Source of the DNA: Hericium rajendrae
Taxonomy: Eukaryota > Basidiomycota > Agaricomycetes > Russulales > Hericiaceae
Length of the DNA stretch: 64,000 nt
Direction of reading: 5' to 3'
NCBI GenBank assembly: GCA_033439255.1
Contig: CM065887.1
Span: forward strand, 1,798,001 to 1,862,000
Part shown: positions 11,220 through 48,842 of the stretch, piece after piece
Numbering within the stretch: the first letter of the stretch is position 1
Layout: each line of letters begins with the position of its first letter
The notes under the pieces: model-generated
Told to the model about the DNA's origin: nothing
The model's database searches: none
Seen by the model: the letters and a program-made list of their open reading frames with translations, nothing else
Made by a program: the position numbers and the translations under genes

Positions 11220-11221
11220 TA

Positions 11222-27692: not shown

Positions 27693-29281
27693 TAGGGTTC
27701 GACACGAGTGCACTCGCAGGTGACCCGGATCCGAACCTGCGGGTTTCTCACCCAGCGCAAGGGCTGACCTGGATCCGTCTGGGTTTCAGCCACCGGGTGA
27801 TTCGGACTTGCGGGTCAGGTACTCGTACAGCAGCAGGTCACTCGCGGGTCAGTTGTTAACAATCAGGCAACAATGTAATTGCAGCATGATAAATATACTA
27901 TTTTATTACTACATTGTAAGTAAGACTACATAGATAATCACCCAACTGCCTGGTGCAGTACCAAGGACTCTCGACAGCACTTAGGGACTGTGCGCAAGCA
28001 GCTCGGTACTACGCGTGTAACATGGTGGATGCGGGGTCATAACACGCATCGACATGCCATTGGCGGTGCAATATTGGTGGCACGCGTGAGTTGAAAGCAC
28101 TGATAAATAGTGAGAGGCATGGGAGAGAAGGTTGTATGTCCGTGTAAGCAGACAGGGCACGCACTGGCCGTTGAAGCCCTGCGCCACTGTACCACGTCCG
28201 CGTGCGTGCATGCGCGGCGCTCTGCGGAGGGGTTGGGCGATCCACGGGCAGGAACGGGCAAGGCATTCGGCACGTTCGAGAGTGATGCCTCCGCGTGTGC
28301 GGCATCGTGCGCAGGCATGGTGGCCGGTATTGTAGCATAGTGGAGGGCGACACGCACATGGGTTTGTCTGGGGTCATGCACGCCGTCGCGTGGCGCGCTA
28401 GTGACATGGCGGGATGGAAGAGGTGCGGCAGTGATGGAAGAGGTGCGGCAGTGATGGGAAATGGGCGACGGCAATGGAAAATGGGCGACGGCGACGGGCA
28501 GTCGGCGACGGCGACGGGCGATGGGCGACGGCGATGGGCGATGGGCGATGGCGACAGGCGATGGGAAAGCGCAGCGAGGTTCCGTAGCAAAGAGACAAAA
28601 ACCGAGAGTATCGCTCGAATTCGAGCGATACTCTCGTTAGTCAGTATAAGAAGTGCAATAGATGTTTTGAATACTTACCTACAAACCCTCGTCTTGCCGG
28701 CGTAGCTTCCATGCCCCGCGGCACACGCTCTCGGTGTTTCTTTGACATCCATGGCCAAAGCCATGACGAGACTCGGAGAGCCTTCCTGCATGCCATCGCA
28801 CAGGCTCTCGGACCAATCGGAGATGCCGCGTGAGTGGCGGAGCATTGACAGCATCTGCGCGGCGGACTTCTGTGCGTCGTGCGATGCGTTCTGCGTAGAC
28901 ACTCCATGTCCGTGAGGGTGAAGGGAAGAGGAGAGCAGCGCAAGCATGGTGGCACGTGCGCGAAGCGTGCCGAAGTCGAGCGTCATCGAGTCTTCGGTCC
29001 ATACATGAGATCAGGTACAGAGTGGTCAACTGAGGGAGGTGCAGAGTGATGCTGAAATGGAAATTCATGCAAGGAAAATACAGCACCCGAGTCAATTCTG
29101 AGATACTACGAGTTACTCGCGGGTCACTCGCAGGTCTATGTATTTTCGTAAGGTCTTGACCTGGATCTGCGCGGGTCTCAGCCACCGGGTGATCCGGATC
29201 TGCGGGTCGCATACCTGCGGGTATATTTCGCAGGTATACCTGCACTGACCTGTGGGTGACTCTGACTCGTGTCCAACCCTA
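27693..29281. mobile_element. Non-autonomous hAT-like element with 8-bp target duplication
   Basis: Ends are inverted: TAGGGTTCGACACGAGT at the left and, read from the right, TAGGGTTGGACACGAGT. ATCACCCC flanks both sides (27685-27692 and 29282-29289), an 8-bp duplication as made by hAT transposases. Sub-terminal regions repeat short units such as CTCGCGGGTCA and CACCGGGTGAT. The interior has no transposase, but includes a GCGACGG/GCGATGG minisatellite (about 28450-28565) and a perfect 34-bp palindrome. It landed exactly at the polypurine/LTR junction of the chromovirus. Confidence 0.82.
28603..28636. repeat. Perfect 34-bp palindrome
   Basis: Two uninterrupted 17-bp inverted arms (CGAGAGTATCGCTCGAA and its complement) with no spacer, next to the minisatellite inside the hAT-like element. 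A spacerless palindrome can extrude as a cruciform; its role is unknown. Confidence 0.85.
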
Positions 29282-29289
29282 ATCACCCC

Positions 29290-30804
29290 CTCTCTAAGAC
29301 GCACTTTCGTCTGGAGTGCGTGATGAGCATGAATGGGGTCGAGGTAGATGAGTCCATGAAGATTGGGAGCCTTGAGTGCATGCGGATGGCAGGTGTAGAA
29401 GTCGGTGATTGCACCATGGACATTGGAAAGGGAAGTACGTGAAAGCCACTGATTCTCTGAATCAGGGTAGCCTGCCCATTTGACAAGATATTCAATGCCG
29501 CGTTTGTTCCGGGTGAGACAAGCATCGAGGACAGACTCAACTTCATACTCTTCCTCACCCTCCACAAGGTCAGGTGGCGGTGCAGGGAAGTTGGGACCAT
29601 GAGCATCAGTTTCCTTGTAAGGGGATAACAGGGATGTGTGGAACACTGGGTGGATACACCAGGTGGGCGGCAGCTTCAGTCGATAAGAGACTGGGCCCAG
29701 GATGTCAGTGATTTCGAAAGGTCCCAGGCATTGATCGGCAAGCTTAGCTTTGGACCGTGTGGTTTTGATGTTCTTGCTATCGAGCCAGACCTTGTCGCCA
29801 ACCTGGAAGTGGATGGTGTCATGCATATGGTCCTGGTTGTTGTGCTTCATGAGGTCAGCAGCTGTTTGAAGGCTGGCCTGGACCTCAGTGCAAAGCTGTT
29901 TGAGATGACAGAAATGATCCTCGATGGTGGGTGTAGACAATGTGGGGTTGACAGTGGGGATGGCAGTGGGAATATAGCCAAGGAGCATTGCAAATGGAGC
30001 TCGGTTAGTGGTGCTGTGGATACAGTGGTTGTGCGAGAACTCAGTGTAAGGGAGCCATTGGACCCAATCATCCTGACAATAGTTGCAGAAGGTGCGAAGG
30101 AACTGCTCAAGTTCTTGATTGACACGTTCTGACTCGCCGTCTGTCTGTGGATGATAGGCGGTGCTAAGGGAGGACTTGATACCAAGTTTGTCAAAGATGC
30201 CACACATGACTTTGTCTGCATACTGTGGGCCACAATCAGAGATGAGGCATTCCCAGAGGCCGTAGTTCTGATAAATCCTGTCAAAAAGGATCTCAACTGT
30301 GCCATCACTGGTAATGGTCTCTTTACAAGGAGTGAAGGAGACATGCTTTGTAAAATGGTCGACAACCACATTGATGGAGTCATAGCCTTGGCATTCTGGG
30401 AGTTTGATGATGAAGTCCGAGGTAATGTCTTGGAAAAGACAGGTAGGGATGGCATTGGGAATTGTTTCAACATGAGGGCAATGATTTTGGACCTTGGTGG
30501 CCTGGCAGGTAGCACAGCCATCAACATAATCACAAATGAAGACAGACATACCAGGCCACCAGTAGTTGCAACTAAGGAGCTTGTAGGTCTTGTAGCATCC
30601 TGGGTGACCAGCCATGGGTGTGTCATGATGTAGCTTGATGATGTCCCAACGAAGGTCCTTGTCGGCAGGGATGTAGACCTTGCCATGAAAGAGGATGAGG
30701 CCATTCTTGTAGTTCCATTCTTGGAGGTTCTTGACGAGGGAGCAAGGACCATTGTTCAGGATCACATCAAGGGCTTGAACAACCTCAATGTCCGTGGGGT
30801 AGGG
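29290..30804 (-). pseudogene. Integrase and chromodomain region of chromovirus half A
   Basis: Long open minus-strand region. In order: the HHCC zinc domain (LHHDTPMAGHPG, GCATCQ), the integrase core with DITSDF and SDCGPQY and a downstream Glu, the basic region GDKVWLDSKN, then the chromodomain (EVESVLDACL...EYLVKWAGYPD, about 29430-29550). The chromodomain places it in the chromovirus clade, whose members target histone-marked chromatin. The frame runs from the junction with the 16.5-kb element to the polypurine tract. Confidence 0.85.
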
Positions 30805-30841
30805 ATAGATTTTGCTTAAGCAAGGTGACTAGCTAGTCACC
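30805..30841 (+). repeat. Left terminal inverted repeat of the KDZ element
   Basis: ATAGATTTTGCTTAAG followed by an 18-bp palindrome GGTGACTAGCTAGTCACC. At 30866-30875, CTTAAGCAAA appears again in reverse, so this end can form a larger hairpin of about 60 bases. Confidence 0.68.
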
Positions 30842-31240
30842 CCCTAATCAGGGCTGCCTTAAGCAAATTTGCAGGCTAGTGTCGGGTGACTAGAATATAT
30901 GATTGTTCATTTCATCTATGTAGACTAGATTAGCAACAAAAGTTCCATAACAATGTGACTATTTTCAATGACTAGTTTCTGCACTGACTATTTGAATGAG
31001 AATCCAACTACAAGTAGCAACTATACAATTTTGTGACTAGATGCTTGAAGCAACAACTACACACTAGAAGCTATCATAATGACTACATCCCACGACTTAT
31101 ATAAGTGACTAAATGACTAGTTACAATGACTTGTACAAGTGGCTAGATCAAATGACTTGTACAAATGACTAGATCAAATGACTATAACAACAAGTAGATT
31201 GCATGACTAGGTTGCATGAGCATAGTGACACGAGATACGA
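30842..31240. repeat. Left sub-terminal GACTAG repeats
   Basis: About 400 bp with the unit TGACTAG or GACTAG more than ten times at irregular spacing. Such arrays near transposon ends usually serve as transposase binding sites. The same unit recurs at the right end of the element. Confidence 0.65.
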
Positions 31241-31577
31241 ACGCGATGCAGAACTAGGATCATGATATCTGCACAACCTGTCCCCGATGAGTGTGCATGT
31301 TTATCTATTGGATAAGATAAAAGTCTAGTGCCATAAGTTCAGCCATGAGCGAAAATTGCACGGGATACGGGGAGCATGCAGACGGGGTACGCACCGCAGG
31401 GTCGAGACAACAGAACGGCTAGTACAGAAGGCAGATGTTCTGGAGCGGGTCTATGGTGGAGCGAGGGCGGTGGTCCCGCAAAAATCAGCTGTACTGTAAA
31501 CCAAGCAAATGTCGATATTAGAAACGAGTCCAAGAACATCCGTTATCGGGGTGTCTCAGCAAGAGTGCAATCACGCA

Positions 31578-32735
31578 CTAGTTCTGCATGGCCTTGATGA
31601 TGTCCACGGCATTCTCCGTGATGCCGTATATGTGTTCTGCAGGTGCGTGCTCACCTGCATCGACAACATGGACGTGCACATTTGCCATGTCATACACGCA
31701 CAGGCTCCCATCGACCACGCTGCCAACCTTGCGCTGCATCATCGTGGCCATGCTCAGCGGGTGCGAGATGGTGGAGAAGCCGTCCACGTGGTGGTCCAAT
31801 TTGCCTAGTCTGCATCAGAGCCACTGTCAGCGTTGTTCGGGACGATGCTGTACCTGGGGTGTGTCTCACCGGTTGAGAGAGGAAGTGGGCGGGCTGTTGA
31901 GGATGCACTGTGCGAGGCGTGCACCGGAAATCAGCACAGAGAAATCCCAGGGGGCATTAGAGCAGTTCACGTTGACTGCAGGCTTGGTGAACGGGTCCGT
32001 CGAGGTGATGGAGACGTTGCCGCGGCTGAAGAGCAGCAGCTGCCACACATCGATACTGAGGTCGCTGAAAGAGGCCGATCAGTGCTGATAGGCATTTTAA
32101 TCCAGGAAAACACCTGCTTGAAGTATCCAGTGTCATAGAAGAGCTCAACAATCGGTGCTAAGTGTATTTTGTCAAAGAAACCCGGCTGAAGAGCAGCAGC
32201 TGCCACACATCGATCGAGGTCGTGGAAAGAGGCCAATCTGATAGGCATTCTAATCCAGGAAAACACCTGCTTGAAGTATCCAGTGTCATAGAAGAGCTCA
32301 ACAATCAGTGCTAAGTGTATTTTGTCAAAGAAACCCCCCATACGCCCACCTGCTCACTGATATCCCTCGCGACCACACCTGCCTCGTCCCTGAACACATG
32401 CTGCAGGTTCGGATACGCGATGCAGTCCGACGCCGGCCCATTCCCACCACGATTGAACCCCTTCCCGTGCACGCCGACCGTTCACCGTCTGCTCCTGCAG
32501 ATTGCATCCAACAGTTTCGAGGTCGACGAGTGCACTGATGCCACAGAGCTGTAGCAATGCAGACATGTTGATTGCACCCACCGTGAGGAGAACTTCACAC
32601 CGTGCATGCACAGTGTAGGTCGTCCCGCTGCTGCTGCTGCGGAACTACACGCCGTGCGCGGTGTGAAGCGCGGTGGTGCCGTTGGTGAATAGGATCTGCG
32701 TCACTTGGTGGTTCGTGAGCGTAAGCCCTGATGCC
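31578..32735 (-). pseudogene. GMC oxidoreductase fragment
   Basis: Remnant of a flavin-dependent GMC oxidoreductase (aryl-alcohol oxidase type, a secreted lignin-decay accessory enzyme). Minus-strand blocks in order: VTQILFTNGTTALHTA, LLTVGAINMSALLQLCGI (GMC signature 2 region), LVDLETVGCNLQEQ, then LFSRGNVSITSTDPFTKPAVN, then SHPLSMATMMQRKVGSVVDGSLCVYDMANVHVHVVDAG and a final EHIYGITENAVDII. The N-terminal FAD-binding fold is missing. Frames change several times, and a segment of about 160 bp is tandemly duplicated (32023-32180 and 32184-32333). It lies inside the KDZ element and looks like a captured host gene fragment. Confidence 0.8.
32023..32333. repeat. Tandem duplication inside the GMC remnant
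   Basis: Two adjacent copies of about 150-160 bp; both contain GAGCAGCAGCTGCCACACAT and AGGAAAACACCTGCTTGAAG. The copies differ by several bases and a small length change, so the duplication predates some of the decay. Confidence 0.75.
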
Positions 32736-32817
32736 AAAACTGTGCACCACGACTGGCCATTATTCTACATCACAAGCAAGAGAGCAACAAGAAAGTACCA
32801 AGAAGATTCATCATAAT

Positions 32818-33207
32818 TCATGCACCCGGAGAATCCCCTTCCTCGCCCTCCTCCGAACCATCCAGACTATCACGCATGGACTCTATCATCCCGGCAATTG
32901 TGCTCGCAATCATTTCCCGCTGAATGACCTCTTGCTCCTGCATGGTTGCCAGTATCTGGTGGAATTCAGACACTGCCTCTTCCGCCCACTCCTCCGCAAG
33001 CACGACCGCTTCAGCAACTACGTCTTCCATCTCATCAAACACTTCCTGTAAGACTTGTCGTGCCCTCCTTGCCGATGTCAACCCACTGCTTGGAATCGGA
33101 ATGCGTGACGGTGGAGCATTGGCTCGTGCTATGGCGCATTTGATGCACAGGGTAGGGTCGGCATCTGCTGGGGTGACACTAGGCAGAATTACCGTCAGAG
33201 CCATCAA
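32818..33207 (-). CDS. Small hypothetical protein, 129 aa
   Basis: Uninterrupted minus-strand frame. A short N-terminal part with CIKCA is followed by a Glu/Ala-rich helix-forming region (residues about 50-115: LQEVFDEMEDVVAEAVV, then AEEWAEEAVSEF) and an acidic end. It could form a coiled coil. No family recognised. It may be part of a larger gene, since no promoter is evident. It lies between the GMC fragment and the KDZ transposase. Confidence 0.35.
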   Translation of the reverse strand: MMALTVILPSVTPADADPTLCIKCAIARANAPPSRIPIPSSGLTSARRARQVLQEVFDEMEDVVAEAVVLAEEWAEEAVSEFHQILATMQEQEVIQREMIASTIAGMIESMRDSLDGSEEGEEGDSPGA

Positions 33208-33990
33208 AACACAACGACAATCGCACTCACACTATCATTGGGACAGTTATCCTGCTAATCCCATCCTCCCCGTCTCGCACGACTTGTCGGATGTGCTCAC
33301 TGTCTTTGTCATGGATGCCGCATCATGTTATACTGCGGGTCAGGGCTGCTAAGGATGCAAACACCGCATTGAGAGTGAGGTTGAGAGAGGGCATGAGGTA
33401 GTAGGGCGAGATTCTAGTATGAAGATATGCCAGTGAGGCATAGGACACGATGGGCAGACGCGAGAATGCGACGAGTAGCCACAAGAATGCGATGAGCAGT
33501 CACGAGAATGAGATGAGCAGCCGTGAGAATGTGATGAACAAACGCGAGGATAGAGTGCACGTTAGATGTTCAAAGCAGACAAGGTGTCTGTGTGCGTCAA
33601 TGGCATGCTGGAGACCTTTAAAACTCGTGTTTCGCAGAGCTACATATTCAACTACATAAGATGTTCAGCATGACCGTCAGACGATTGCCTTTGCTCCTCT
33701 GGAAAGAGCAATTGTGCCTCATGGAATAGCCCCCTCCACATGTTCGCTTGCCTGTCGGGATTCTGTTAGCATCAGGATATTGCTACCCTTAACAGACGCA
33801 CTTAACTTGCGGGACTTTAGGACATGCGAGACCTGAGACACGAGATGCGATATGCGAAATGCGAGACTATGAATTTGCACTAGATCTTGGTAGCAGGAAG
33901 AGATATGCACGTGTGACAATGGCACACTGCTTGTAGCCTGGAGTTTGGGGGAATTTGGACTGCACTCTTTCGCAGTGCTATATGAATTCA
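33208..33990. other. Spacer with duplicated KDZ 3' sequence
   Basis: Contains a run of near-identical short units (GCGATGAGCAGCCACGAGAAT-like, about 33455-33555), and from about 33630 a diverged tandem copy of the transposase 3' end found at about 33967-34116. Shared bases include TGCTCCTCTGGAAAGAG and TTCTGTTAGCATCAG. No separate gene is supported. Confidence 0.55.
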
Positions 33991-36900
33991 CTACACACAA
34001 CTGTTAATCTGCACTGTCCAGTGATCGCCTCTGCTCCTCTGGAAAGAGAGATCGCGCCTCGTTAAAGAGCCTCTCCCATATTTTTGCTTGCCTGCAGGCT
34101 TTCTGTTAGCATCAGAAGAGGCATATTTTGAGCGGACGTACTTCGCAGCATAACTCCCTTCACCCTTCTCTGCTAGATCATCACTGGCAAGCAGAATTTG
34201 TGCGTTCAACTTCCACCAGCGATGCCACGTACGGAAAGTACGCTGTGTCCATCGCATCTCTACTTCGAGAAGTTTCTTTTGCTCTCTGGAACGAGCGACT
34301 GCAGCGCATTGTCGGAACCAGGTAACTTGCTCGTCTACAGTGTATTTTCTTAGCGTGAATGCATAGAGATACGTAGATATCACTCACATTCTACTAACCA
34401 CTTGTCACTTGCTGCAGACATCGCTGAGCTGCGATATGAACCCATCTGCCAAATCCATGATCCCTCATCAGACGACTTCTTCCAATTTGTCGCGCGGCTA
34501 CCATGATAGACTGTCGGGGTGTAACAATGCTCCGGTCGAAGTGCTTTGTAGTTATGGCTATTGGAGCCTAGGTCAATCAAGATCAATCGGGTTTGCTCAT
34601 ACTCTTGTTGAAGTGCTTCTAATCATAAGGATGCATTGGCCAATACTTGACCGTTGTGGGTCTTACTATTTTGTCCCATTGTTTCTTTAGTAAAACACCA
34701 CAGAAATCCCCGCATAGCAGCGCTCTTCTTTACGTCTTGAAGAATATCATTTGCGTGGCCTTCGCGAAGGACATGCTCTGTCCGCATCGCCTTTGCAAAG
34801 TGTGGAGATTGTTGAACTACTCGTGGATACTGTGAAGGAATGGGTAGGCAGATATCCTCTGCGTTGAAATGCTGCGCCGAAGGCAATGCCGGCCATGAGA
34901 CAGCTGCAAATGTTGGAAGTAATTGCAACTCTTCGACGACGATGCCAAGTGAGTCGCTGAACGCTGCTTCCCATTCCTGTATATCATCAGCCAATCGTTG
35001 GCACAGAAGATCCAGCTCATTGTAGACTGAATCTGATTTCTTCTCCTCATACTCTCGAAGTTGTGCCCAAACTTTCTGCCTACAAACCGTAGTTAGTATC
35101 TCAACATTTATATGCAATGTATAACATAACTGTTTTTGTTCAATATCCATGGCAAACTTCAATAACCTGCCTAGACGATGATTGGGTTCGATGCTGGCCC
35201 CCGTTATGATGCGCTCTTGCTCGTTCTCTCTGTTCAGCTCCGCCAATGCTTGCTTCTACATTGGAGCTAAGATACATGAGTAGCTGCGCTACCGTTGATA
35301 GGGTAGAGATGACATTACCTTTATCCTCCTCCGGCTCATATGGATTATCTATATCCTCTCGCCTCCAGTTCGGATCGTTGACGTTTTCTAACCACTGCTG
35401 CTCACGCTCGTGCCACTCTTTCAATGGCGCCCCGTGCTCTTCCAGAGATATCTTTATATTTTCGAGTTTCTTTTCATCAGTGTCGAGACGTTCGTGGACG
35501 CGTTTGTAATGCTTCGCCAGCATTGCTGCTGAAGCAAGAGGTCAGTTCTATAATAGTGGACTAGGTAGCAATACATACCTTCTTTGAAAACCTTCTGCAT
35601 GTTGTAGTCAGCCATATGCGTGTTCAATGCATCGTGCCAATGCCCAGGTCCCATTTCCTGTGTACTTCTTGCAATCGCATTCTGAACGGACCACAGACAC
35701 TCCAGATCCTCGCCATTTGTGTGCCCTGTCCCTGGGACGAAATGGCCATTGTGCTTCGTCCTGCATTCAAGCTTGGTGTGACCCGGGAGGTGGTATGAAC
35801 CGACGAGATGATGCATCTTTGGAAATGTGGGAGCTCCAGGGAAATCAGCCATACGCTTGTCAAAGTTGATCATATATTGGCAGACAATGTCATACCACTC
35901 ATACCAAAGATGGAGCGAGGCATATGGACATGTCGCTGAGACCTTTGCAAAGTCAACACTACAGTATCTAATCATTGAGGAGTAAGATGTTCTGTCAGGC
36001 AAACCGAACATAGCGCTCACCGTTCTCCTTTCGGTAGATCGACAACACCGTTCGTGAGGATCATGCCTGATCGTGCACATGCAAGCACCAGAATCCCGGC
36101 AATGACCTTTCCTGAATATTGGTTGCTGAGAGCTTTGAACGAACTGCAAGTCGACGTCTACATTTCCGTCTTTCAGTGCGGGGGCTATCACATGCAGAAG
36201 GTAGTTACTTACTTCAGCCTTTGCATTTTGAGGGCAGTTTTTGAGCCAGTTTTTGTATTTGGTCTCATTTGCGAAGAAGGCCGAGCCGTGGGTCAAAGGT
36301 TGATCGTTCTTGTCCATCGGTTTGTCATGAAGACTACTTGAGAAGTTGCCATCCTTCACATAGCGCAGTGCATGAAGATACCTAGATCGTAATGAGCTCA
36401 AGCAACGACAATCAGGTGAATGAAACTTACATGTCTTCGGGAGAGGCCGTTTGCCAACCAGGATCCATATTGACCCCTACTAATGGGCAGCTCGGACACT
36501 GTGGCACCAAACATCCCGGTTCAAGAGGGTCTGTTGCGTTTTGTCCATTCCACCGCAGAGCTTGAAGATACTCATAATATCGAGAGGCCTGTAGGAGCTC
36601 CCTATAGCGATCCTGAGTGATCCGTTTCAGCAGCGCATATCGTATCAGAGATGGGTACATACCGGGACCCGGCCTTGAAAGGCATTATCGGTCAAGCATT
36701 CTAAGACGGCTGAATAATCGTATGCCATGACTTTGGCTCGAACTGATAGGTGATGGAAAAGGCGAAGAACAGAGAGCGTAAAGACTGTGCGAGGGTGGGT
36801 GAACGAAGCAGGCCACAGTCCAGCTTGAAGGAGCTGGCAAGGGTGAGGCTGAGGCTCATAGGTGCCTAGATAACTGCACCCACAATATTCAACCTCGCAG

Positions 36901-37649
36901 GTTTGCATCCCGGTCGTACCGACACAAATTACCTCGGCAACCACTGCTTTCGGCGAGCTACACCGTAGTCCACCATGTCCCAAGCGTATCACCAAACCAA
37001 GGCTGCTCAAGTCAATCTTCTCGAAGTACGACCCTGTCCACCTCTCAACGATGTGAAAGGGGTCTTGATAGTGATCAGTGACGATACAGGTCGAGCACAG
37101 GAGACGTGCATGGAAACACTGTATGCAACAATACATCGCATCTTCACCTTGACACTTCGAGCACTTCTTGCCGATGTCCGAATGATAGTAGCGGCCATGA
37201 AGGATGTCGAGGAAAGGTTGAGCCCATTTAGCAAGGAAGGTCTCAGACGCTTCACTCGGTTTCTAATGATTCATTAGCAGTAAGTCTTATAAAATCACGG
37301 AGAACACGAACCGTGCCACTGGTTGATCTATTTCCTTCTGACGGTGATATTTTCTAATGGTTGATTAGCCATAAGCCTTATGAAATCACAGAAAAACACG
37401 AACTGTGCCACTGGCTGACCCACGCCCTTCTGTCATTGGTATGTATTTTTCCACTGGCATCATCATGGAAGCACCGTCTCCTCCATTGCCCGTCAACATA
37501 TCCAACATGCACTTCTTCCTCGGCATCGCATCTTCTCGAAACATATGATCTGTCGTTGACCCATTTGCGTTGATGCTACTGACTAGTATCTCTGTTGAGA
37601 GATTGGTTGGCAGAGGCAACGGCTCTGCTGCCTTCTGTTTCCTCCCCAT
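33991..37649 (-). CDS. KDZ-class transposase with CxC2 cysteine cluster
   Basis: Transposase of the KDZ (Kyakuja-Dileera-Zisupton) class, nuclear, catalysing movement of its own element by a DDE/RNase H-type core. Start ATG 37649 (MGRKQKAAEPLPLP). CxC2 cluster: CSKCQGEDAMYCCIQCFHARLLC-type spacing (about 37050-37180), then DPFHIVERW, LGLVIRLGH, CEVEYCGC. After an intron at about 36613-36660 comes DRYRELLQASRYYEYLQAL, CPSCPLVGVNMDPGW. Later exons read FKALSNQYSGKVIAG, VVDLPKGER (splice donor follows at about 36021), LHLWYEWYDIVCQYM, HHLVGSYHLPGH, TNGEDLECLW, STQEMGPGHWHDALN. The C-terminal part is helical, with EMRWTQRTFRTWHRWW. Introns of 30-60 nt join most blocks in frame, so most of the enzyme looks preserved. 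The link between the N-terminal exon and CxC2 is disturbed by a tandem duplication (37264-37440), so function is uncertain. Confidence 0.78.
37264..37440. repeat. Tandem duplication in the transposase N-terminal region
   Basis: Two adjacent copies of about 85 bp, both with AAGYCTTATRAAATCAC and GTGCCACTGG. They differ at roughly one base in eight. The duplication falls between the first exon and the CxC2 exon of the KDZ transposase and could lie in an intron. Confidence 0.6.
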
Positions 37650-37957
37650 GATGAAGGCTGCTGTACGAAAGTGTGAGCGACGATAGACCAGTGGAGGGGA
37701 AGGGTCGGAATAGACAGTATCTAGAGCCATAGGCGAACGCGCCAGTACCATTAGTGCCAACATTGTGGCTTGCTATTGTTAACAAACACTGCGCTTTGAT
37801 GGCTTGCCGTGTGCATGGTAGGTGCCTGGAGACTCTATTGTTGATGTGAGACAAATACACGCTATGATCAACACGACTTTCAAAAACAATCATGACGAGA
37901 AAGACAAAGCAGAGGACAAATCGAGGACCGAACAAAGCAAGAAATAAGACGAGCGAT

Positions 37958-39967
37958 CTAACATCGGTATAGAGTATTATGCACACATTTCGGAGGACCT
38001 TCAGTCACTCTTTCCATGGGCAGAGATGGGATAACACCATGCGTGGAGATAAAAGAGTCCAGATAAAAATTTATCAACTCAACCTCGCGCTCTCCGTAGT
38101 CCTCGTGGCGCAAATACAGAAGAGAGGCCTCGAGATTCTTAGGGAACCCTTTCCAGACTGACATGACCACCCTAAGCTCCTCAAACCACAGTAATCTGTC
38201 GCACCAGTTCTGCTTCTGACAGCCATATTCATAATCGAGGGGAATGTCACAGTATTTAGGCCCAAATGGCCAGACTTTCTTCCGTTGCTCTGCCTGCCTA
38301 GCGTGCCGATCCTCATCCCATTCTGCTGCTGAGATTTGGAGCTCGTCGTGGTGTTCGAATTCCCAACAGATATGGGCCATGTTGAGCTTGTAGAGGATTA
38401 TAGCACGGACTGCGGGATTGTAAGCTACACGATGGCTAGCTGAGCAGCCACAAGGCAGTGGGCAGTTAACGGTCTCCACAAGACTTGTGCTTGTGGACAA
38501 AGAGCCGAAGGCCAATTGGGAGCCGTAAGACCAAAATCTGTCAGGTTCATATGGCTTGTCTTTTGGCCATTCACGCTTCCAATGAGTGTCACTTAGAATT
38601 GACCGCCAATCGGATGGTGAAAGGGCAAGGTCGTAGGTGAGGATACGTCTGACGTCCCAGCTCCGTGCCAAGCAATACCAATGATAAAAAAAGGTTTCCT
38701 GCATCTTCTCCTCTGTGGGGCCCCAGAACAGGTGAATCGGTGGTAGATGGTAGGGCCAACCACGAGTAAGGTTCTTCTCTGTGAAAATTGGCGCCGTGTT
38801 TGAAATCGGTGGATTCCAACTTGCAATGGCCCTGGGTACCCAATCTGGCCGAGGAACAGCATTTTGATAACGACGGCTGTTCTCAGTATGCTTTGGCCGT
38901 GCTGCATTTAGGATGTTGCATTCGTGGGTGACTGATATCTTGCTGTGAGATACATTGACATTGAAAACAAAAAAGGACCACTTATGCTCTTGTTGTCGAT
39001 GCATTTCCATGCCTGCGGCTCTCCACGTGAGATGGTGAACATCACGGCGCGAAGCGTAGCCACACGCTGCCTGCTCGAAGAGCCGATCATTTGCTGGTGA
39101 TGGCAGATAGTACCACAGCTCTTTCGTGTGATCCTGGACCGACCCACTCCGTACTCCTTCGTCTCGCCACTTGCTGAACTCAGAACCAATGAAGTTGGAC
39201 CAGTCTACCAGCCGAAGCAGACCTTTTTGATGAGTGGATGGAAGCAAATAGTAGTCGGAAAGAGGTAGGTGAAGATATGCGGTTACACCCTTGGACTCGA
39301 GCATGCAATATACACAAGGATCGGCAGTGATGCTGCCATGAGTGGGAACACGTATCGCAGCACAGCGCTCTGAGGTACTGTCGGTAAACCATTCACAGAA
39401 CGCTTGCAGTTCCAACAGATGCCGCTGAATTGCGCGAACAGCCTCGATGATATCCCGCCAGGAGCAAGGGGCATCTTGGAGTCACATCAAAGCTGCTAGG
39501 ATGCGACGAGGTGCAGTTGATGGATAGGATACATGGTGAAATTCTGAAAATTCACAGAGGCGAGGAATGCACTCTTGTGCCCGTGATTGAAGACCATCCC
39601 GCTCGTTCCGCAGCTTGTCAATCCACTTCGGGGATAAGACGATGCACAACGGGAAAATCGGGTGGGGACATACATCAACGCGTGTAGGCAGGCGATACAG
39701 GATAGAAGAGAAGCTATCTTTGGTGGGCATACGGATCCAGCCCAAATATGGGAAATGAGGATCAAAATTCTGTGAGAAATGGGTCCATTCGTGGGGGCCC
39801 CATAGACCATCGCTTCGAACTAGGGCCGTCTCATCATGTGGCAACTCAGGGATATGGGCCACATGTGCTACGACGACCATCTCCCCAGGCACCCATCCAA
39901 GAGCCCAACACGTGTATGGGAGATCGAAACGGCGTCGAGAAGTGGACATCTTAAGAAATTGAATCAT
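37958..39967 (-). pseudogene. Orphan cargo gene 1, about 668 aa, one in-frame TGA
   Basis: A single minus-strand frame from ATG 39967 (or ATG 39949) to 37958, interrupted only by TGA at 39482-39484; the reading continues sensibly in the same frame (LQDAPCSWRDIIEAVRAIQRHLLELQAF). No intron of acceptable size removes the stop. Features: N-terminal Trp/Pro-rich strand region (FDLPYTCWALGWVPGEMV), a helical middle, ETFFYHWYCLARSWDVRRIL, a cysteine pair CPLPCGC, and a Trp-rich C-terminal half with KVWPFGPKYCDIPLDYEYGC. No known domain recognised; the composition is that of a soluble protein. It lies directly upstream, on the same strand, of the KDZ transposase (308 bp apart). The stop is compatible with a CGA-to-TGA change. 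Confidence 0.7.
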
Positions 39968-40989
39968 TCACAGTCAATTTTATGATAGATATTCGCAGCT
40001 GGGTCATACCTTTTGTCCGTGGGTATATATGCTAGCTGTAGATGTATGGCGGCGTCACTAGAATAAAAGTCGGACTTGAGAACTTGAGCAACTTGAGCAA
40101 TATTCAGAAAGTGTGTTGGCTGTAAGGTATACGAGGTCTGAGTGCACAAGGCGTGAAGCTCTTTCCTCGTAGACTGTGCCAGATAGAGGGTAGAAAGTTG
40201 AATAGGGAGTGGAAGGGAAGGATACATGGTCTGAGCGCACAACGCGTGAAGCTCTTTCCATGCATACAAAGCCTGTGGAAGGCTAGCTGCTAGATCTGCT
40301 GACAACTACGACCAAAACAACCCAGAACAGTCAGCGAAAGTGAATAAAATGAGTTTATTTACCTTGAGTTCCTTCAATGCAAAAATAGTCGAGCTTCGTC
40401 AGTAGACAACCGACAGGAAAAGGGGACCGACAGGGAAAGGGTGTCGAGCGGACAATGATAAGGAGGGAATACAGGAGAGCGGTGATGTGAAACTGACAGT
40501 CACAGTGACATAGCGCCTCAAGGAAGGCGGCGGTGCTTATTGGGCGCCTATGAGCAATGACACGACTGTTTCCCTCCGCTGTTTACCCTCATACCCTCGC
40601 ATACATGTCGATTGGGCTGGGCTTTTCTCATTGCCCTTTCCTTTTCTTGTGTTCAACAACAGCTTGTCGAGCTTCAATCCAGGTAAGCAGATGATGCAAT
40701 TTACCCTGTCGTCCCATTCCTCGAAGGCGCGGCTATTGTCATCTTGTTCCTCCCTCTTTTGCAGGTACATATGACCAGGCCATAGCGTCGCACCAATCGA
40801 CTTCACGCTCTGTGCGTCGAGAGGTGCACCACCAAGGTCTCATACCCTCCATTCCCCTGGTCCCACAATCCGCTCCAGACCGCTCCCCCCTTCCAACATG
40901 ACTTTCCCATCCCACTATCCCCACTTCCTCCATCTGGCACCTTATACCACGACCTTCTGCCAATCAATTTCACTCGTAGTGCATCGGTC
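39968..40989. other. Spacer inside the KDZ element
   Basis: About 1 kb without supported gene. A repeat of about 25 bp (GCGTGAAGCTCTTTCC) occurs twice near 40152 and 40244 with GTCTGAGYGCACAA before it. The right part may hold decayed 5' sequence of the ABC transporter fragment, but no motif confirms it. Confidence 0.45.
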
Positions 40990-42840
40990 ATGCGTCAGTT
41001 TTCCATCCGGCTTATCAAGGTGAAATTGTCCTTTTCTCGCTGTTCAAACGACGCGAGTTTTTCATCTTTGTCCTCGCCGCTGTCTGCTCGTCCCTCGTTG
41101 CCGGTAGCATCATGCCTTTCAGGACCTTCGTCGTCGGCCAGGTGTTCAACACCTTCGCACAATTCCCGACTTCCAATATCACGCAGGAGGACAAGTCTGC
41201 TCTCTCGCGACATTGGTTTATCCATGCTCAAGCTCTTCGGTCTTGCTGCGGGTTCACTTGCGCTCATCAGCACCATCTCGAGCCTGTGGATCTGGACAGG
41301 CAAACACAACGCTATGAAGATGGGCAAGAAAGTAAATGCTTCTGTCACACAGTGCGACATGCTCTGGTTTGATACGAAGATGGGCGCCGATGATTCTGTG
41401 AGACCACCGAGGGCGATGGCCCAGTCAGTGCTGGTGGTCTCATGGCCAAATTCGCAAGGTACTATCTGCCATTGCATCACTTCATCTTGTCTGATATTCG
41501 CGCAGGGAAATGGACGAAGTCAGAATGGCTTCTTCTCTTGCATCCAGCATGATCGTCCAGTACTTGGCCACTTGCATCGCATGCCTGGTCCTCGGCTTGA
41601 TGCGGTCTTGGGCGCTGACCCTCATCATCCTCTCCGCGGTACCCGTTCTCATGCTCATTCAAGGCATTTCCCAAGGCATTGCGGGCCCATCCTCGCGGTT
41701 GAGCGCCAACAGATGGCTCAAGCTGCAAGCTTGGTTGACCGCGCTATCAGCACCATCACAACTGTCAAGGCTTTCAATGCCCAAAGATACGAGGAAGCCA
41801 TCCTCGCCTCTGTGCTCGACAAGATCCACGCGGTGGCCCCTCATCTTCACATTCGCATACCCCTCATGCCCCTCGGTCTCCATCCTTTTCGACATCACTA
41901 TATCACTCGCCGCGCGCAAAATGACGTTCATCATGGGTGAATCCGGCTCCATCAAATCGACCGTCACCCAGCTTCTGCTCCGCCTCTATGATGTGCAACA
42001 GGGCGCGATCGTGATCGACGACCAGGGCATGGCGTACGTCGACAAGACTGGGCGCGACAACAGTTCAGTGTCATCTCGCAGAGCTGCATCCTTTTCGATG
42101 GGACTGTGCATGAGAACGTCGCCATGGGCCTCGCTGGGCCTGGTAGCCTGCGACGTCCCGAGGATGCCACTTGGGAGGAGGTCGTCGAGGCATTCAGAGT
42201 TGCATTGTTCCATGACTTCGTGTGGGACCTCCCGGACGGGTATGATATGCAGCTGGGCAACGGAGGTGTGAATCTGTCCGGAGGACAGAAACAATGACTG
42301 GCAATCGCGCGTGCATGGTTGCGCAATCCCCAAGTGCTTATCCTGGGTAAGCCGCTTATTACTATGCATACAATGCATTCACTGACGTGAATCTTCGTGA
42401 CTAGATGAGGCCACGTCCGCACTGGATGCGACTTCACTATAATAATTTTAATTACTATTATTTATCACGTGTACTCGTCTTCTAGGCCGTTAAGCACTGG
42501 CGATGAAACAAAACTACGATTGTAATAACACACGACCTTTCTCAAATCAGTCTGACCAACTTCGTGTACCTCATCAAGGACGGCCGCATTGCTGAGCAAA
42601 GCTTTCGCGCCGACATCAAGAAGATGCCCGGCGGTGAGTTCGGCCAGATGATGGAGGCGCACGGCTCTCAGGGCAGAGGATCCGTGGTCTGATGAGGCGC
42701 TGTGTGAGCGCGAACACAAGGTGGAGATGATCTTGGACGAGCCCTCTGACGACAAGAATATGCACATGCGCGCTTTGAACCGCCAGAGCGTTGCGGTTCC
42801 GGCGCTCCGACCGCTCATTATCTGCCATTGCCCGGTGGTC
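40990..42840 (+). pseudogene. ABC exporter fragment (STE6/MDR-like), first half
   Basis: Remnant of a full-length-type ABC exporter, a membrane transporter of peptides or drugs; fungal STE6 exports lipopeptide pheromone. Blocks in order: VAGSIMPFRTFVVGQVFNTF and LWIWTGKHNAMK (first membrane domain), DEVRMASSLASSMIVQYL, SWALTLIILSAVPVLM, STITTVKAFNAQRYEEAIL, then the nucleotide-binding domain: MTFIMGESGSIKST (Walker A, with Ile where Gly is expected), ILFDGTVHENVAMG (Q-loop region), LGNGGVNLSGGQKQ (signature) followed at once by a TGA at 42296-42298 where Arg is usual, VLIL then DEATSALDA across a short intron (Walker B), and TIVITHD-like H-loop sequence. Frames change several times. The second half is absent. 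A host gene fragment inside the KDZ element. Confidence 0.8.
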
Positions 42841-43049
42841 TATTGGGTTGCTTTGACTGTAAGGTGCGGGTGCCACATCTTGCCACTACTATGAAGTGAA
42901 CTGGTTCTTGTCCATCCGCCACACAGCAAAGCTACTGGATTCTGGGTTTCGTTATAAATGCCGATCGCCAGAATGATTGCAGCGACTGTTATCCTCACCC
43001 AACTATACAGCCCCCACTACCATTTAACTCTGTGAGCACTTTCCAACGA

Positions 43050-45241
43050 ATGCTGAACAACCACTGGATGACGGACGATGAGCTGGCCTGGCTCTCACAG
43101 CGGGTTCTCGACGGCTATCAGACAGCCAAGCAGGACGGCAAATATTCTACGTGGACAAGCGAGTTAATCAAAGACTTCCGATCTGCTTTCCCTGCAACGC
43201 GACGAAGGAGGAAAGATGGAACGACAGAGAGCGAAGACGACTTGCACCAGCGGATGTGTGAACTAGATCCAGTGCGTACCGACCAGTATCTATAATGATT
43301 CTACTAATTTGTTCTCCAGCGTATCCGTAAATGGCTCGGCAACCATGCCAAGCGTATTCTTGAAGGACAGAATGGAGGAGCTACAGGAAATACCAAGCCT
43401 AAGCCTCTTGCACTGAAGACGGCCAGAACTGACAAAGGCCAGGCACCCAGCGCACGTGACCTTATGCAGAAAGACCCGAACATCAAAGCTCGTCTGGCGG
43501 TCATTCGTCAAGAAGGAGCCCAAGATGGCAAAAGCGTGCAGATGCGTATCAACGAGGCACTGACCAGCATGCTTGCTGACGCGGAAACCAAAAAGCTGTA
43601 GACAGCTCGTGCCGAGTCTGCGATGGTGGAGTTCCGACAGAAGAAGGAGGAGGAGAGAGCTGCTCAAATTCTCACTGCACAGGCTGAAGGGGTCTCCAAG
43701 TCAGAGTTCGAGCGCATTCAGTAAGTAGTTTACTCCATTTGTTGTTGCTGACTTCTGAGTGCATCTGCTTGTATTATGATATAGGCAACTGCAGAATTTA
43801 AACAACACAATCCGACACCACGGTCAAGGCTGGAGCGAGCAGTGCAAGGTCGTTATCTGCTCCGTCGTAGCGTATCGAAATGAGAATGGAATCTTGCAGG
43901 TCATGACATACGTATTTCAATGGATGGACAGCAACTGTATAGACTGACCTTCATCTACTAGTGATGCTTTCGGACCTGATGGGGCTGTCCTTGCACCTCT
44001 CGCCACAGCAATGAAGTGCCCTGAGATGCTCCTCTCGGACACTTTCAAGGGCCATCTTGAGGATATATTCCCTTTGCCAATGGTCTCTGGTGCACCGTCG
44101 CAATCCCCGGCTCCCAACGAGAACCCTTTCCCAACTTCTCCAACTCCAGATTCTCCAACTGTGCTCACTACACCCATGTGCTCTCAGGCGCGGGCATTTG
44201 CAACTCCAAAGCCGAACAAGGGAAAGGCAAGGGCTGTATCGTCAGCCTCGTGGCAATGGAGCTCAAGGCTATTGTGGACCCCATTCCCTCGTGCCTCCCG
44301 AGAGTCGGATGAGGAATCAGATGTACAACCATCACCATCTCGTAGACATAAGTGCATGCCTCGCTGCATCATAGATGTCTCAGATGACAAAGAAGATGTT
44401 GGGCACCGGGAGGTGAACGAGGAGTGCAGCAATGCAGCTGTTGGTGAAGATGTCGAGAGGGACGGCGAGAAGGACGGCAAAGACAGCCGGAGAGATGATG
44501 CGGACGGCAAGAAGGATGAGGAAAGCGAGAAGGACGAGGAAGGCAAGAAGGACGAGGAAGACGGGAAGGATGAGGAAGACGAGAAAGATGAGGAAAGCGA
44601 AGAGGATGAAGGCCTGCAGGATGTACCGTTGGAGGAAGAATCTCCGGATGAAGAGGGCCCGGAGGGTGAAGGCACAGTGGAGGAGGATGGAAGGCCAGCA
44701 GGGGAAGGGTCGACAGCAGAGTCACGCAAGTCGGCGACGAAGGGACGGCAAGGCAAGATTAGCAGCACCAAAGCTGCTCTTCCGTCGCAGCTGGTCAAAC
44801 AGCTCCAGTCTTCTCAGAATCGTGACATTGCCAACGCACGAGAACCGTGCCGATCAGCATGCCTATCACTGCCCTCCGCTGTCGAAACCAATGCTGCGAC
44901 ATCGTCTCATTCTGGCATGGATGGTGTTGATGAATCTCGACGCAGGTCTGGCCGCCTTCACACCCAGGCTCAGACAACAATTGGTTCGAATGCGGAAGCT
45001 CAGTCTTCCACTTTCAGGTTAGATTCAGGTTTGAAGAAACTTTTTTGGGGCCTAACTAATTATTATCTGAAGCTCCAGGAAGCGGAAAGTAACCAAGAAG
45101 GATGATGAACCTCCAGCGAGAAAGCGGGCAAAGACCACAGTGGCCGTGAAGGATGCAAGTCAGAAAAGAAGCGCACCTGCATCCAAGCGCAAGGAGACTT
45201 CGGGGAAGAAGAGGGGCAGGGCATCTCACTCCCGACGGTAA
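43050..45241 (+). pseudogene. Orphan cargo gene 2, acidic nuclear-type protein, one in-frame TAG
   Basis: Starts ATG 43050 (MLNNHWMTDDELAWL). Intron 43272-43319, exon 43320-43720, intron 43721-43784, exon 43785-43899, then a further intron and a long exon from about 43962, a short intron after QSSTF at about 45019, and an end at TAA 45239-45241. The second exon reads RIRKWLGNHAKRIL...ADAETKKL, TAG (43599-43601), then TARAESAMVEFRQKKEEERAAQIL in the same frame; CAG to TAG would explain it. The frame at the 43962 acceptor does not match perfectly. The C-terminal half has a K/D/E repeat (KKDEE units, about 44490-44620) and basic clusters RKRKVTKK and RKRAK typical of nuclear import signals. Function unknown; a chromatin or DNA-associated role is only inference. 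Confidence 0.65.
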
Positions 45242-45494
45242 GTTGGAGAAATAATCGTTTGATTTTGTAATTGTTGCACGTGTTGTATTTGACAATAGCA
45301 TCTACTCGCTTTGATTGTTCTGTATATGACAAATGTGGGTTGAGTAGGAGGTGTGGTGTGGCCAGGTGTGGCGGACAAGGCCCAGGACGTGGCTTTGGCC
45401 ATGGAATGGTGCATTGTCTGCAGATAAATATAAGCGTCGTGTCCGTCTGGACGATAGCCTCTCTCTTTCGCTCCCCTTGTGCCCGCCCTCCCCC

Positions 45495-46768
45495 ATGTCT
45501 CTGAAGCCCGATCCTGAACTGAAAGCTCTTGTGGAGAAACTCGCAGGGCCTTGTCCTCACCCTGCTCCAGTCAAATGTCATCATGGTGTCCGAGCCGTAG
45601 GATTGCAGTATCAAACCAAAGGTGATAATTTGGGTTGTTGGTACTGCATTGTGAGTAGTCCTGCCTCACTGTGGAGGAGCTGTGTTTGACTCCTCTATAG
45701 TGCCATCAGAAGGAGACTTGCATGACGGGATGGAGTACTATCTCAGAGGCTTTGTCTCCGGCGAAACTTGGTTTGATCACGCGATTTCGGGAGGCAAGGG
45801 AGGAGCAAGCCAATGTATTGAAAGAGGCAACCACACTTCTTAATCATGAACGCTCAGTGCAGCGCAACTCTTCCGGAAGATCTTCTGCTCGCCAACGTCA
45901 AGCACTACCTTCTTCACCTGCACAGCAATCCGAGGCTGGTCGGTCTAATGCTACACGTGCTACGTGTCATGAGGTGGTATCCGAGCCTCCGATGCGTCGA
46001 AAGATCTTCGACGTGCAATGGGTCCCTCCTTCATCCCCGACGGTCTATGTGGGGACGTCCGAAGTTGATGACCAGAACCATACGATCATGAGTGTTTTGT
46101 TTTCACAGGTGCGTCGCTGTTCATATGTCGCGTGGTGACAACGTTGACATTTGATTTATGTGTCCCAGAATGATGACTCGTCTATCTTGAAGCACCTATC
46201 CTGGCCGAAGTCGCAGACATTTAGTCTGCTTTATCACATTCCTTCGTTATCACGAGTGATCGACATCAAACCCACAGATATCATTGATGTCTTCGACCCC
46301 ATTCAATGCTCATGGGATTCAAGCACTATCGCAGGCTGCAAATGAGAACCTATTGTTCCTGAAGTCCCATTTATCTGGCGCCACCATGATGTGTCTGTAC
46401 ATCGGGATCTAGACAGGCATGCTGAGGACTTCCGATCGAGACTGTGCGACGTCCTTGGACCGACTATCCTTCAGCAAGATCTTCCAAGTGTGCGGCATTC
46501 TAATGGTCAGACCAGCTCCAAGGTTTTAGCTGCTCTGTCGATGCTTGAACTATCACCACTTGCTGCCAGCAATTCTCAATGTGGAGTCAAGCGCAATCGT
46601 GAGGATGATGTGCAGGAAGGGCTGTCACGAAAGAAAGGGAAAGGTCGTGCTACTGTCACCTATTCTGATGTGATCGAGATTGACTCTGACTCAGATAATT
46701 TGGTTCTATGTCGAGGTTCCAATATGTTCCAATATATGCCATGGGCTGTTTCTGACTATCTCCCTTGA
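45495..46768 (+). pseudogene. Orphan cargo gene 3, GRF-like zinc motif, one in-frame TGA
   Basis: ATG 45495, two introns (about 45651-45700 and 46110-46169), end TGA 46766-46768. The first exons give CPHPAPVKCHHGVRAV...NLGCWYCI|CHQKETCMTGW, a Cys/His pattern resembling the GRF-type zinc finger seen in DNA repair and topoisomerase-linked proteins, but the Gly-Arg-Phe core is not conserved. A Ser/Arg-rich linker follows, then a block IFDVQWVPPSSPTVYVG and FSLLYHIPSLSRVIDI. A TGA at 46343-46345 lies in frame between STIAGCK and EPIVPEVPFIWRHHD. The tail has NREDDVQEGLSRKKGKGRA (possible nuclear signal) and a Ser/Asp stretch EIDSDSDN that looks like a SUMO-interacting motif. It ends 90 bp before the right sub-terminal repeats. 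Confidence 0.62.
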
Positions 46769-46859
46769 CTGTTTGCCTCGACTAGATAGTGGGGCTCATG
46801 TTCGGTATTATACTAGTTGAGTGATCACTAATGGAACTGACTGTTTGGCAGGAGTATTT

Positions 46860-47231
46860 CTAGGACTATTAGAGTCAAGGACTACTATAGTGACTAGATA
46901 ACTGAATGTGAGTGACTGACTAGTATAATGGGCTAATTATGCTGACTAGTTGGTTGACTAGTTCACGTTCAAGTATAAATAATTGAGGACATCATTAGCT
47001 GACTAGTTGGCTGACTAGTTGGCCGACTAATTGACCAACTAATTGACCAAGTTGGTTGACTAATAGACTGACTATATGATTGACTATGTATCTGACTACT
47101 TCATTGATTATTTATTATAACATTATACTACTGTAATCACAGCAATGGTATTAGATTGAGTGACTATTTGCCTGACTAAGATTGTGACTGCAAGCTTGGC
47201 TATATTAGTCACTGGATTTTTCAAGCTTGTT
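46860..47231. repeat. Right sub-terminal GACTAG/TGACTA repeats
   Basis: About 370 bp with the unit TGACTAGTTGG and shorter TGACTA pieces more than a dozen times, mirroring the left end. Several are separated by 9-12 bases. Confidence 0.65.
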
Positions 47232-47268
47232 GGTGACTAGACAGTCATGATCCTTAAGCAAATTCTAT
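47232..47268 (-). repeat. Right terminal inverted repeat of the KDZ element
   Basis: On the minus strand it reads ATAGAATTTGCTTAAG, five unmatched bases, TGACT, two bases, CTAGTCACC. Chromovirus sequence starts at once on its right. Confidence 0.68.
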
Positions 47269-48842
47269 TGAATGGGCTCAATGTCCTTGGTCTTGGCATT
47301 GCGAATGCGTTGGCAAAGGTCAGCATTGTCAATGGACTTGACAGCAGCTGGACGTGTAGCATGGATCTGGAAGTACTTGGGGTCGAGGAGGACACGATCA
47401 GAGTTGTCGTCATCCACCCCCTCTCTATGGTCAGGTTGTCTCGACATGGCATCTGGCCGGTGATGAATACTGGGCTTGTGGATTAAAGTGAAGTCAAAAC
47501 GAGTGAGAAAGAGAGCCCAGCGAGCCTGACAATGACTCAGCTTTTGGACGGACTTGAAGTATTCCAGGTTCTTATGGTCAGTCCAGATCTCCACAGTATG
47601 GGGAGAACCTTCCAGGTAGTGGCACCAGGCTTCGAGGGCACAGATGATGGCCAGGAGTTCCTGGTCGTAGATGTTGTAGTTGCATTCAGGGGCAGTGAAG
47701 GCCTTGGAGATGTAAGCAACTGGGTGCCATTGCTCGTCCTCCCCGTGCTGGAATAGGATACCTCCTGTGGCATAGTCTGAGGCATCGACCTCAACCAGGT
47801 AGGGTTTGGACAGGTCAGGCATGATAAAGACTGGGGATGAGGTGAACACAGCTTTAAGAGCCTCAAAGGCATGTTGACATTCAACAGACTAGGCCCAAGG
47901 ATGGTCTTTCTTGGTAAGGTCGAACATGAGGTGGGCGATTTTGGAGAAGTCCTGGATAAAATGCCGATAGAAATTGCCAAAGCCGACAAAGGACTGGATG
48001 TCCTTGATGTTATGGGGAGCAGACCACTCAGCAATGCCTGCAACCTTGACAGGGTCCATGGCAAGCATGTTATGGGAGACAATGAGACCAAGGAACTCAA
48101 CTGAGGGCTGCTCAAATGAGCACTTCTCTGACTTGAGGAAAAGGTCATTGTCCTGGAGGCATTGGAGGACCTTGCACACAAGGTCGCAATGTTCTTTGAG
48201 GGTTTCAGTGAAAATGAGGATATTGTCCATGTAAATGACGACTTTGCCCGTGTCGATGAGATCCTTGAAAAGTTCATTCATCATTCCTTGGAACGTGGCA
48301 GGGGAGTTCATAAGGCCAAAAAACATCACCAGGGGTTCAAAGAGACCAAGGTTGGTCTTGAAGGCAGCTTTCCATTCGTCACCCTCCTTGATGCAAACGT
48401 TGTTGTAACCCCAACGAACATCCATCTTGGAGAAGACTTTTGCACCCTTGAGCTTGTCAACGAGTTCAGAGATGAGGGGCAGGGGATATTCATTCTTGAT
48501 GGTGCCTTTGTTGAGGGTACGATAGTCCTGGACAGGGCATAGTTTTCCATCTTTTTTCTTGATAAAGAAGAAGGGACTCGTCATAGGGGATTTAGAAGGA
48601 TGGATATAGCCTTTCTTGACCTGGTCATCAAGGAATGAATTGAGGTCCTTCTGCTCAGTAGGAGCCATGGGATAGACCTTGCAGGAGCGGGGTTCAAAAC
48701 CATCTTTCAGGTCAATGGCATGATCCCAAGGGTGACGTTCAGGGAGGTGATAAGAGGATTCCTCATCGAAGACAGGTTGGAAATCCTGATACTGAGGGGG
48801 AACCATCTCAGCAAAGGACTTCTCTGCAACACAAGTGGCCAC
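47269..48842 (-). pseudogene. Reverse transcriptase and RNase H region of chromovirus half B
   Basis: Reverse transcriptase blocks: LPERHPWDHAIDL, PVQDYRTLNKGTIKNEYPLPLI, FSKMDVRWGYNNV, LMNSPATFQGMMN, YMDNILIF (variant of the YVDD box, Asn in place of the second Asp), SFVGFGNFYRHFI. RNase H follows: VEVDASDYATGGIL, YDQELLAII, EIWTDHKNLEYF, HRPDAMSR. These define a Ty3/Gypsy polymerase. Confidence 0.85.

Follow-up and report, generated by a model that had tools for sequence, protein, structure and literature searches.

The DNA analysed here is a stretch of 64,000 nucleotides (hereafter, the window) from the basidiomycete Hericium rajendrae (contig CM065887.1; C10:1798001–1862000 in our contig numbering), whose genome assembly comprises 46.8 Mb in 19 contigs. 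The window contains one complete transposon of 16,486 bp, which lies within the pol gene of a Ty3/gypsy element and is bordered by 7-bp target duplications. It is one copy of a multi-copy KDZ family that has five conserved genes (a KDZ transposase gene and four companion genes, A–D), has moved recently, and has taken up fragments of host genes. The insertion site has the following features:

30794–47279, no strand assigned: whole transposon; the copies are alike from GTGGGGTAG to GGCTC and divergent outside, and gypsy copies show the empty site.
30787–30793, no strand assigned: left target duplication AATGTCC, 7 bp.
47280–47286, no strand assigned: right target duplication AATGTCC, 7 bp.
29116–30793, minus strand: 3' part of the target gypsy pol (H2C2, integrase core, chromodomain).
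47287–47888, minus strand: RNase H part of the target gypsy pol.

A first-pass annotation of the window had placed the ends of the element at two 37-bp imperfect inverted repeats. These repeats are real, but they are not the true termini: the sequence common to the copies continues 11 bp further out on both sides, to 30794 and 47279, and divergence starts at the 7-bp duplication. The element splits the pol gene, with RNase H on one side and the H2C2-integrase-chromodomain part on the other. When the flanks were joined with a single AATGTCC, they aligned without gaps over 793 bp to three of five fetched gypsy copies (93–96% identity), and the remaining two likewise crossed the junction (679 and 761 bp), so that the empty arrangement was found in all five. 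These empty sites are paralogous gypsy copies in one genome and not allelic. A G-rich tandem array with a 20-bp period (28405–28579) adjoins the split pol gene. The observed/expected CpG ratio is 0.79 inside the element, 0.61 at 15001–30700, 0.53 at 47300–64000, and 0.89 at 1–15000; given the lower ratio in the neighbouring repeats, these appear as if older and more decayed than the element.

When the left end (396 bp) was compared to the genome, we found 17 rows, corresponding to 15 places and two extra pieces of the same ends, and the right end (489 bp) matched at 15 places. Every left end faces one right end, 13.5–19.5 kb apart, which defines 15 copies (E01–E15; E01 is the window copy), and one KDZ match lies inside each of the 15 end-to-end intervals (here and below, KDZ matches are the best 150 of 172 KDZ-domain matches in the genome, hereafter, listed matches). 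Left and right ends thus occur together, and with KDZ genes between them, and the mobile KDZ unit proposed in the first-pass annotation is borne out by the paired ends and by the empty sites. Allowing at most one mismatch, a 20-base terminal pattern matched 33 times in the genome, 30 times at the ends of the family and three times elsewhere; the left end had no match among plasmid records. Whole sequences were used for the window copy and ten others, and the remaining four were represented by their end flanks and, for two of them, one interior stretch. E08 and E09, the shortest among the copies taken whole (13.57 kb), are identical except at 2 of 13,569 sites, but their target duplications are not the same, indicating that one of them jumped recently.

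Exact 7-bp duplications flank nine of the 15 copies (E01, E03, E05, E06, E07, E08, E09, E12, and E15), and none was found for E02. E05 and E06 share both flanks and therefore look like one insertion that was duplicated together with its surroundings. The left 7-bp flank of E04 is that of E03 and its right one that of E05, and the right flank of E13 equals the left flank of E14, the other flanks of these two being unlike. E10 and E11 are oppositely oriented on contig C7 and separated by about 66 kb (C7:2911707–2931209 and C7:2996830–3012757); their 7-bp flanks GACCGGC and ATGCGCC are reciprocally swapped, as expected from a ~66-kb inversion by recombination between both copies. Recombination between copies thus leaves inversion-type flank swaps that are visible in this family. 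Three copies (E04, E05, and E06) are located about 2 kb from TET/JBP matches with an adjoining KDZ match, near contig ends that look duplicated (C1:9106–11873, C17:25249–28016, C18:396816–399576).

Both ends of the window copy carry an inverted repeat and a sub-terminal array:

30794–30843, plus strand: imperfect terminal inverted repeat of the left end, matching the right end at 32 of 50 bases.
47230–47279, minus strand: right imperfect terminal inverted repeat.
30826–31208, plus strand: left sub-terminal TGACT(A) array, probable transposase binding region; 14 TGACT and 12 TGACTA in the first 450 bp.
46681–47238, plus strand: right sub-terminal TGACT(A) array, oriented as the left one; 16 TGACT and 13 TGACTA in the last 500 bp, with several 12–13-bp spacings.

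Within the first 50 bases, 32–33 match between the two ends in each of the 11 copies compared, and the terminal bases are G and C in 14 of the 15 copies (the left terminal base differs in E11). The arrays, earlier described as GACTAG-rich, are GACTA(G) arrays present at both ends at far above chance: in 2000 first-order Markov sequences, TGACTA occurred on average 0.5 (left) and 1.0 (right) times, with maxima of 5 and 6. In the window copy, 12 forward motifs and one reverse motif were found on the left and 13 forward and one reverse on the right; across the 11 copies, TGACTA occurs 8–12 times in the left 450 bp and 9–13 times in the right 500 bp, with one reverse motif per end. The motif is rare in the interior of the element (0.2–0.7 per kb, forward), and spacing between motifs is often 12–13 bp. 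Because the arrays point in the same direction at both ends, the two ends are not equivalent. The arrays are putative binding sites of the transposase.

Five conserved genes lie between these arrays. The ratio of nonsynonymous to synonymous substitution rates (dN/dS) was calculated by the Nei-Gojobori method:

33994–37673 (approximate limits), minus strand: KDZ transposase gene, several exons, with a CxC2 cysteine cluster; PF18758 9.5e-29, PF18803 6e-29; core dN/dS 0.09–0.15.
37958–39949, minus strand: gene A, 645 codons, one intron (38932–38985), in-frame stop in the window copy; main part dN/dS 0.13–0.21 in nine of 10 pairs and 0.42 in one.
43020–45102, plus strand: gene B, several exons (aligned), acidic C-terminal half, in-frame stop in the window copy; one exon gives 15 genome matches, all in the family.
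45495–46768, plus strand: gene C, several exons (aligned), Cys/His-rich N-terminus, acidic hydrophobic C-terminal motif; one exon gives 15 genome matches, all in the family.
32836–33231, minus strand: gene D main exon, conserved small protein; 19 rows genome-wide, 15 in the copies and four elsewhere; dN/dS 0.23–0.47.

The KDZ gene that had been noticed at first is well supported, with 101 bits for the KDZ superfamily domain PF18758 (curated cut-off 26.6) and 100.8 bits for the CxC2 cluster PF18803 (cut-off 27), and the listed KDZ match in each of the 15 copies exceeds the PF18758 cut-off. A KDZ-domain tree with 27 rows, 11 from the family and 16 from references (20 were fetched, of which four had no usable match and were dropped), placed the family on a separate branch (97/96) from five TET-neighbouring KDZs and from KDZs beside distant A genes; the references were mostly chosen for nearness to A or TET, which makes the tree uninformative on how often A and KDZ co-occur. 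The first-pass annotation had recognised three orphan genes and suggested that they are regular cargo. Orphan genes are indeed present, although four of them are conserved, gene D being the addition, and all four were found in all 15 copies (one exon each was used as query for B, C, and D). The acidic hydrophobic motif at the C-terminus of gene C is conserved in the aligned exons; it presumably resembles a SUMO-interacting motif. No description of gene A was found in literature searches or in Pfam, with a possible mention in Iyer et al. 2014, the work that reportedly named KDZ, and two peptide patterns of gene A gave 84 matches in viral contigs, none of which was confirmed.

The companion genes are mostly under purifying selection. 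Between E03 and E08, for which synonymous divergence is 0.23–1.56 over the exons, dN/dS is 0.13 for the KDZ core, 0.08 for the CxC2 exon, and 0.24 for the C-terminal exon, compared to 0.13 for A, 0.20–0.25 for the exons of B, 0.06, 0.07, 0.22, and 0.36 for those of C, and 0.36 for D. Comparisons with the window copy gave 0.08–0.47 where computable, most of them being synonymously saturated. Relationships among copies are not uniform along the element: gene A of E12 is near that of E08 (synonymous divergence, dS, 0.09) and its gene C near that of E10 (dS 0–0.08), and E01 and E03 resemble each other closely in their D exons (0.20) but not in their other genes. These mosaic relations imply that lineages exchange segments.

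In addition to the conserved genes, the window copy holds two pieces of host genes, as the first-pass annotation had also seen, located in two slots for copy-specific sequence, one just inside the left array and the other between A and B:

31500–32724, minus strand: left cargo slot, GMC oxidoreductase gene fragment; weak GMC_oxred_N at 32354–32644 (E 0.0038, 17.5 bits, cut-off 23).
41029–42815, plus strand: middle cargo slot, captured ABC transporter gene fragment including an apparent intron; source C2:1782363–1784526.

The left slot, 0.6–3.3 kb from the left end, contains lineage-specific stretches in E01, E03, E10, and E12; E10, E12, and E14 carry inserts in this slot, and E08 shows none. 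A matching stretch in E03 has GMC_oxred_C above its cut-off (6e-9), and positions 31905–32724 had no match among the other family lineages. The slot between A and B has a lineage-specific stretch in E01, the ABC transporter piece, which occurs only in E01 and E02, has no match in the other family lineages, and derives from a single chromosomal source on contig C2 (88 and 81% identical, and 83–88% when aligned in three pieces). The distinction first drawn between orphan genes and host fragments therefore holds. The alignment crosses the apparent intron and lacks about 390 bp of the source; it suggests uptake of host fragments in the form of genomic DNA. E03–E07 contain a piece of another gene with a single source on contig C5 (92–93% identical over most of the piece). 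A 455-amino-acid open reading frame of E03 had no Pfam or PDB match; it may resemble MYND/MUB1 proteins. The remaining eight of ten unmatched stretches in E01 read as diverged spacer or gene parts and not as cargo. E11 has a 3.5-kb nested insert between A and B (1716–5248 of the E11 stretch) with a duplication of about 9 bp, which accounts for its extra length. Host-gene fragments are copy-specific extras, and the copies show that such elements hold pieces of host genes.

The copies also share a pattern of decay. Transitions at CpG (C>T or G>A) account for 184 of the 201 singleton changes in E03–E07, although only 2014 consensus bases belong to CpG. Changes of this type also explain 86 of the 109 differences that separate E01 from E02, and the two that separate E08 from E09. 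The CpG changes showed no strong dependence on the third base (0.07–0.11 per site). The excess of CpG transitions suggests that the copies were methylated at CpG sites that later underwent deamination, and we infer from the mutations that methylation by the host is the probable cause of copy decay. The window copy is itself partly decayed: an in-frame stop interrupts both gene A and gene B, and the splice donor of gene A is altered.

These results show that the unit inserts whole with a 7-bp target duplication, and the family very probably consists of large cut-and-paste DNA transposons in which the KDZ gene and four companion genes travel with the ends and host pieces are passengers. In the mechanism that we propose, the KDZ protein would bind the same-oriented TGACT(A) arrays through its cysteine cluster, pair the two imperfect inverted ends, and excise the element, which would then be joined to a 7-bp-staggered target. 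Gene A, which is also found repeatedly beside other KDZ genes, may encode a co-factor of the transposition reaction or of its regulation, and B, C, and D may be family-specific helpers. The host would methylate the copies, which would decay by CpG transitions, and host fragments would enter by uptake of genomic DNA and be carried as passengers.

A different role for the companion genes is suggested by the TET/JBP genes of the same genome, of which there are 46 matches (38 above the family cut-off). Although 36 of the 46 are within 6 kb of a listed KDZ match outside the family, none lies inside the 15 copies, which rejects TET/JBP as hidden cargo. Distances from TET/JBP to the nearest listed KDZ match cluster at 2.1–2.7 kb (17 of 46) and 3.2–3.3 kb (14 of 46), so there are probably at least two TET-bearing KDZ families in this genome. 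A–D could then be an anti-silencing module replacing the TET/JBP of these elements, a proposal that we regard as having a small chance of being correct. The decay by CpG transitions makes silencing look like a real pressure, and the conserved end of gene C, which we presume to be like a SUMO-interacting motif, would be in keeping with such a role; however, no demethylase or chromatin protein was matched in the Pfam scans made, and because the copies decay at CpG, any protection must be incomplete. Extending this proposal, a TET-less KDZ lineage might have evolved a heritable four-protein set, with A shared with other deep KDZ lineages, for both transposition control and evasion of methylation silencing, which would be a second, TET-independent solution in one genome; we put this forward as a speculation that is unlikely as a whole.

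It is also improbable that A–D are passive cargo, in which case only KDZ and the ends would matter and the companions would be host-derived hitch-hikers that have had too little time to be lost. In favour of this reading, only E06, E08, and E09 among 10 modelled copies have gene A open to codon 645; it is broken in the remaining seven, one of which is the window copy (E07, outside these 10, has no normal splice donor). In pairs among the close copies E03, E10, and E12, dN/dS reaches 0.59–0.68 in the long exon of B, 0.41–0.84 in exon 2 of C, and 0.15–1.23, from few changes, in exon 4 of C, and constraint may accordingly be loose in parts of both genes. On the other hand, dN/dS of A–D is 0.06–0.36 between E03 and E08, whose synonymous divergence in these genes is about 0.5 to 1.6, and all four genes are kept in all 15 copies, whereas the host fragments differ and are lineage-specific. 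A composite or chance cluster of nested transposons in a repeat-rich region, as might be imagined from the location inside a gypsy pol gene and the nested insert of E11, is ruled out by the 15 paired ends with one listed KDZ match in each, the 7-bp duplications, and the empty sites.

The possibly loose constraint on parts of B and C is not the only observation that weighs against a family of transposons with four working companion genes. Eleven of the 15 copies were covered over their full length, and the last C can be counted into an 8-bp duplication in four of the nine exact cases (E01, E03, E07, and E09; not in the other five). The genome search with gene A gave 46 rows, which cover all 15 copies together with five closer and 14 distant loci outside the family. 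A link between A and KDZ is supported by nine of the distant loci, which are at most 10 kb from a non-family listed KDZ match, a neighbourhood that covers 4.65% of the genome; the resulting P of about 2e-9 assumes uniform placement, though transposons cluster, and counts the best 150 of 172 KDZ matches. None of the five closer relatives is within 10 kb of a listed KDZ match and gene D has four loci outside the family, showing that A and D can exist without KDZ. Pfam gave no function-assigning match to A, C, or D, and exon scans gave only matches below cut-off, e.g., Nop14 for B (E 0.2) and CaMBD for C (E 0.017). The best match of gene A, the only one of the four companion genes compared to PDB sequences, had an E of 0.1, and its fold prediction had a mean pLDDT (predicted local distance difference test) of 32. 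At two loci (C3:1668413–1670951 and C7:432348–434891), A and D are adjacent with no listed KDZ match within 10 kb; these are possibly remnants or a non-autonomous derivative.

A cut-and-paste family in which KDZ and A–D travel together with the ends remains our preferred reading. KDZ elements are widespread in mushrooms and, in the parts of the literature available to us, are discussed mainly in terms of the transposase and the presence or absence of TET/JBP. The copies described here share five conserved genes and range from two that are 2 sites apart to others in advanced decay. This makes it testable which proteins a large KDZ element requires in addition to its transposase, and how TET-less elements survive beside TET-bearing families.

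Among other large or cargo-carrying elements, the family can be compared to Starships, the giant cargo-carrying elements of Pezizomycotina that are moved by a tyrosine recombinase. Both are large fungal elements with cargo, but the family described here belongs to a different subphylum and has a KDZ transposase; no Starship tyrosine recombinase was present among the open reading frames scanned with Pfam, a scan that included no search aimed at captain genes. Helitrons, which make no duplication and use a rolling-circle transposase, are rejected given the 7-bp duplications and the KDZ domain. Zisupton and Dileera are likewise rejected, since they make an 8-bp duplication and an exact 8 bp was found beside these termini in none of 11 copies.

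Among KDZ elements, the TET-bearing Kyakuja families of Agaricomycetes are described in the available text of Kojima 2025 (PMC12730594) as ending in 5'-CA..TG-3', lacking inverted repeats, and carrying a TET/JBP gene. The family shares with Kyakuja the KDZ transposase and the 7-bp target duplication. It differs in its G..C termini, in having imperfect inverted repeats and four other conserved genes, and in the absence of TET/JBP; because of its termini, we did not file it there. KDZ1–KDZ3 of Cryptococcus, in the sections available (PMC12810828), are mobile elements of about 9–11 kb with duplications of 8 bp (KDZ1) or 4–8 bp (KDZ2 and KDZ3); they resemble the family in having a KDZ transposase and a size of several kb, and differ in their CxC1 cluster (CxC2 here) and long inverted repeats (139–241 bp). 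According to the available text on Pleurotus ostreatus (PMC7641404), a CxC2 cluster precedes intact KDZ genes, as is the case here. In Marasmius oreades, KDZ elements are abundant and the inverted repeats of KDZ/Plavaka elements have been characterised, as far as the accessible parts of the reports go (PMC8290104, PMC9674265), and the repeat library (PMC9674265), which is not restricted to one kind of element, has entries as long as about 42 kb, so that the size alone of the H. rajendrae element is unexceptional. In the available portions of two further papers (PMC7473861 and PMC8226300), KDZ is merely named in lists of groups. The family fits KDZ, but its termini are unlike those published for Kyakuja, and its duplication is not the 8-bp one of Zisupton/Dileera; we therefore treat it as a separate KDZ variant.

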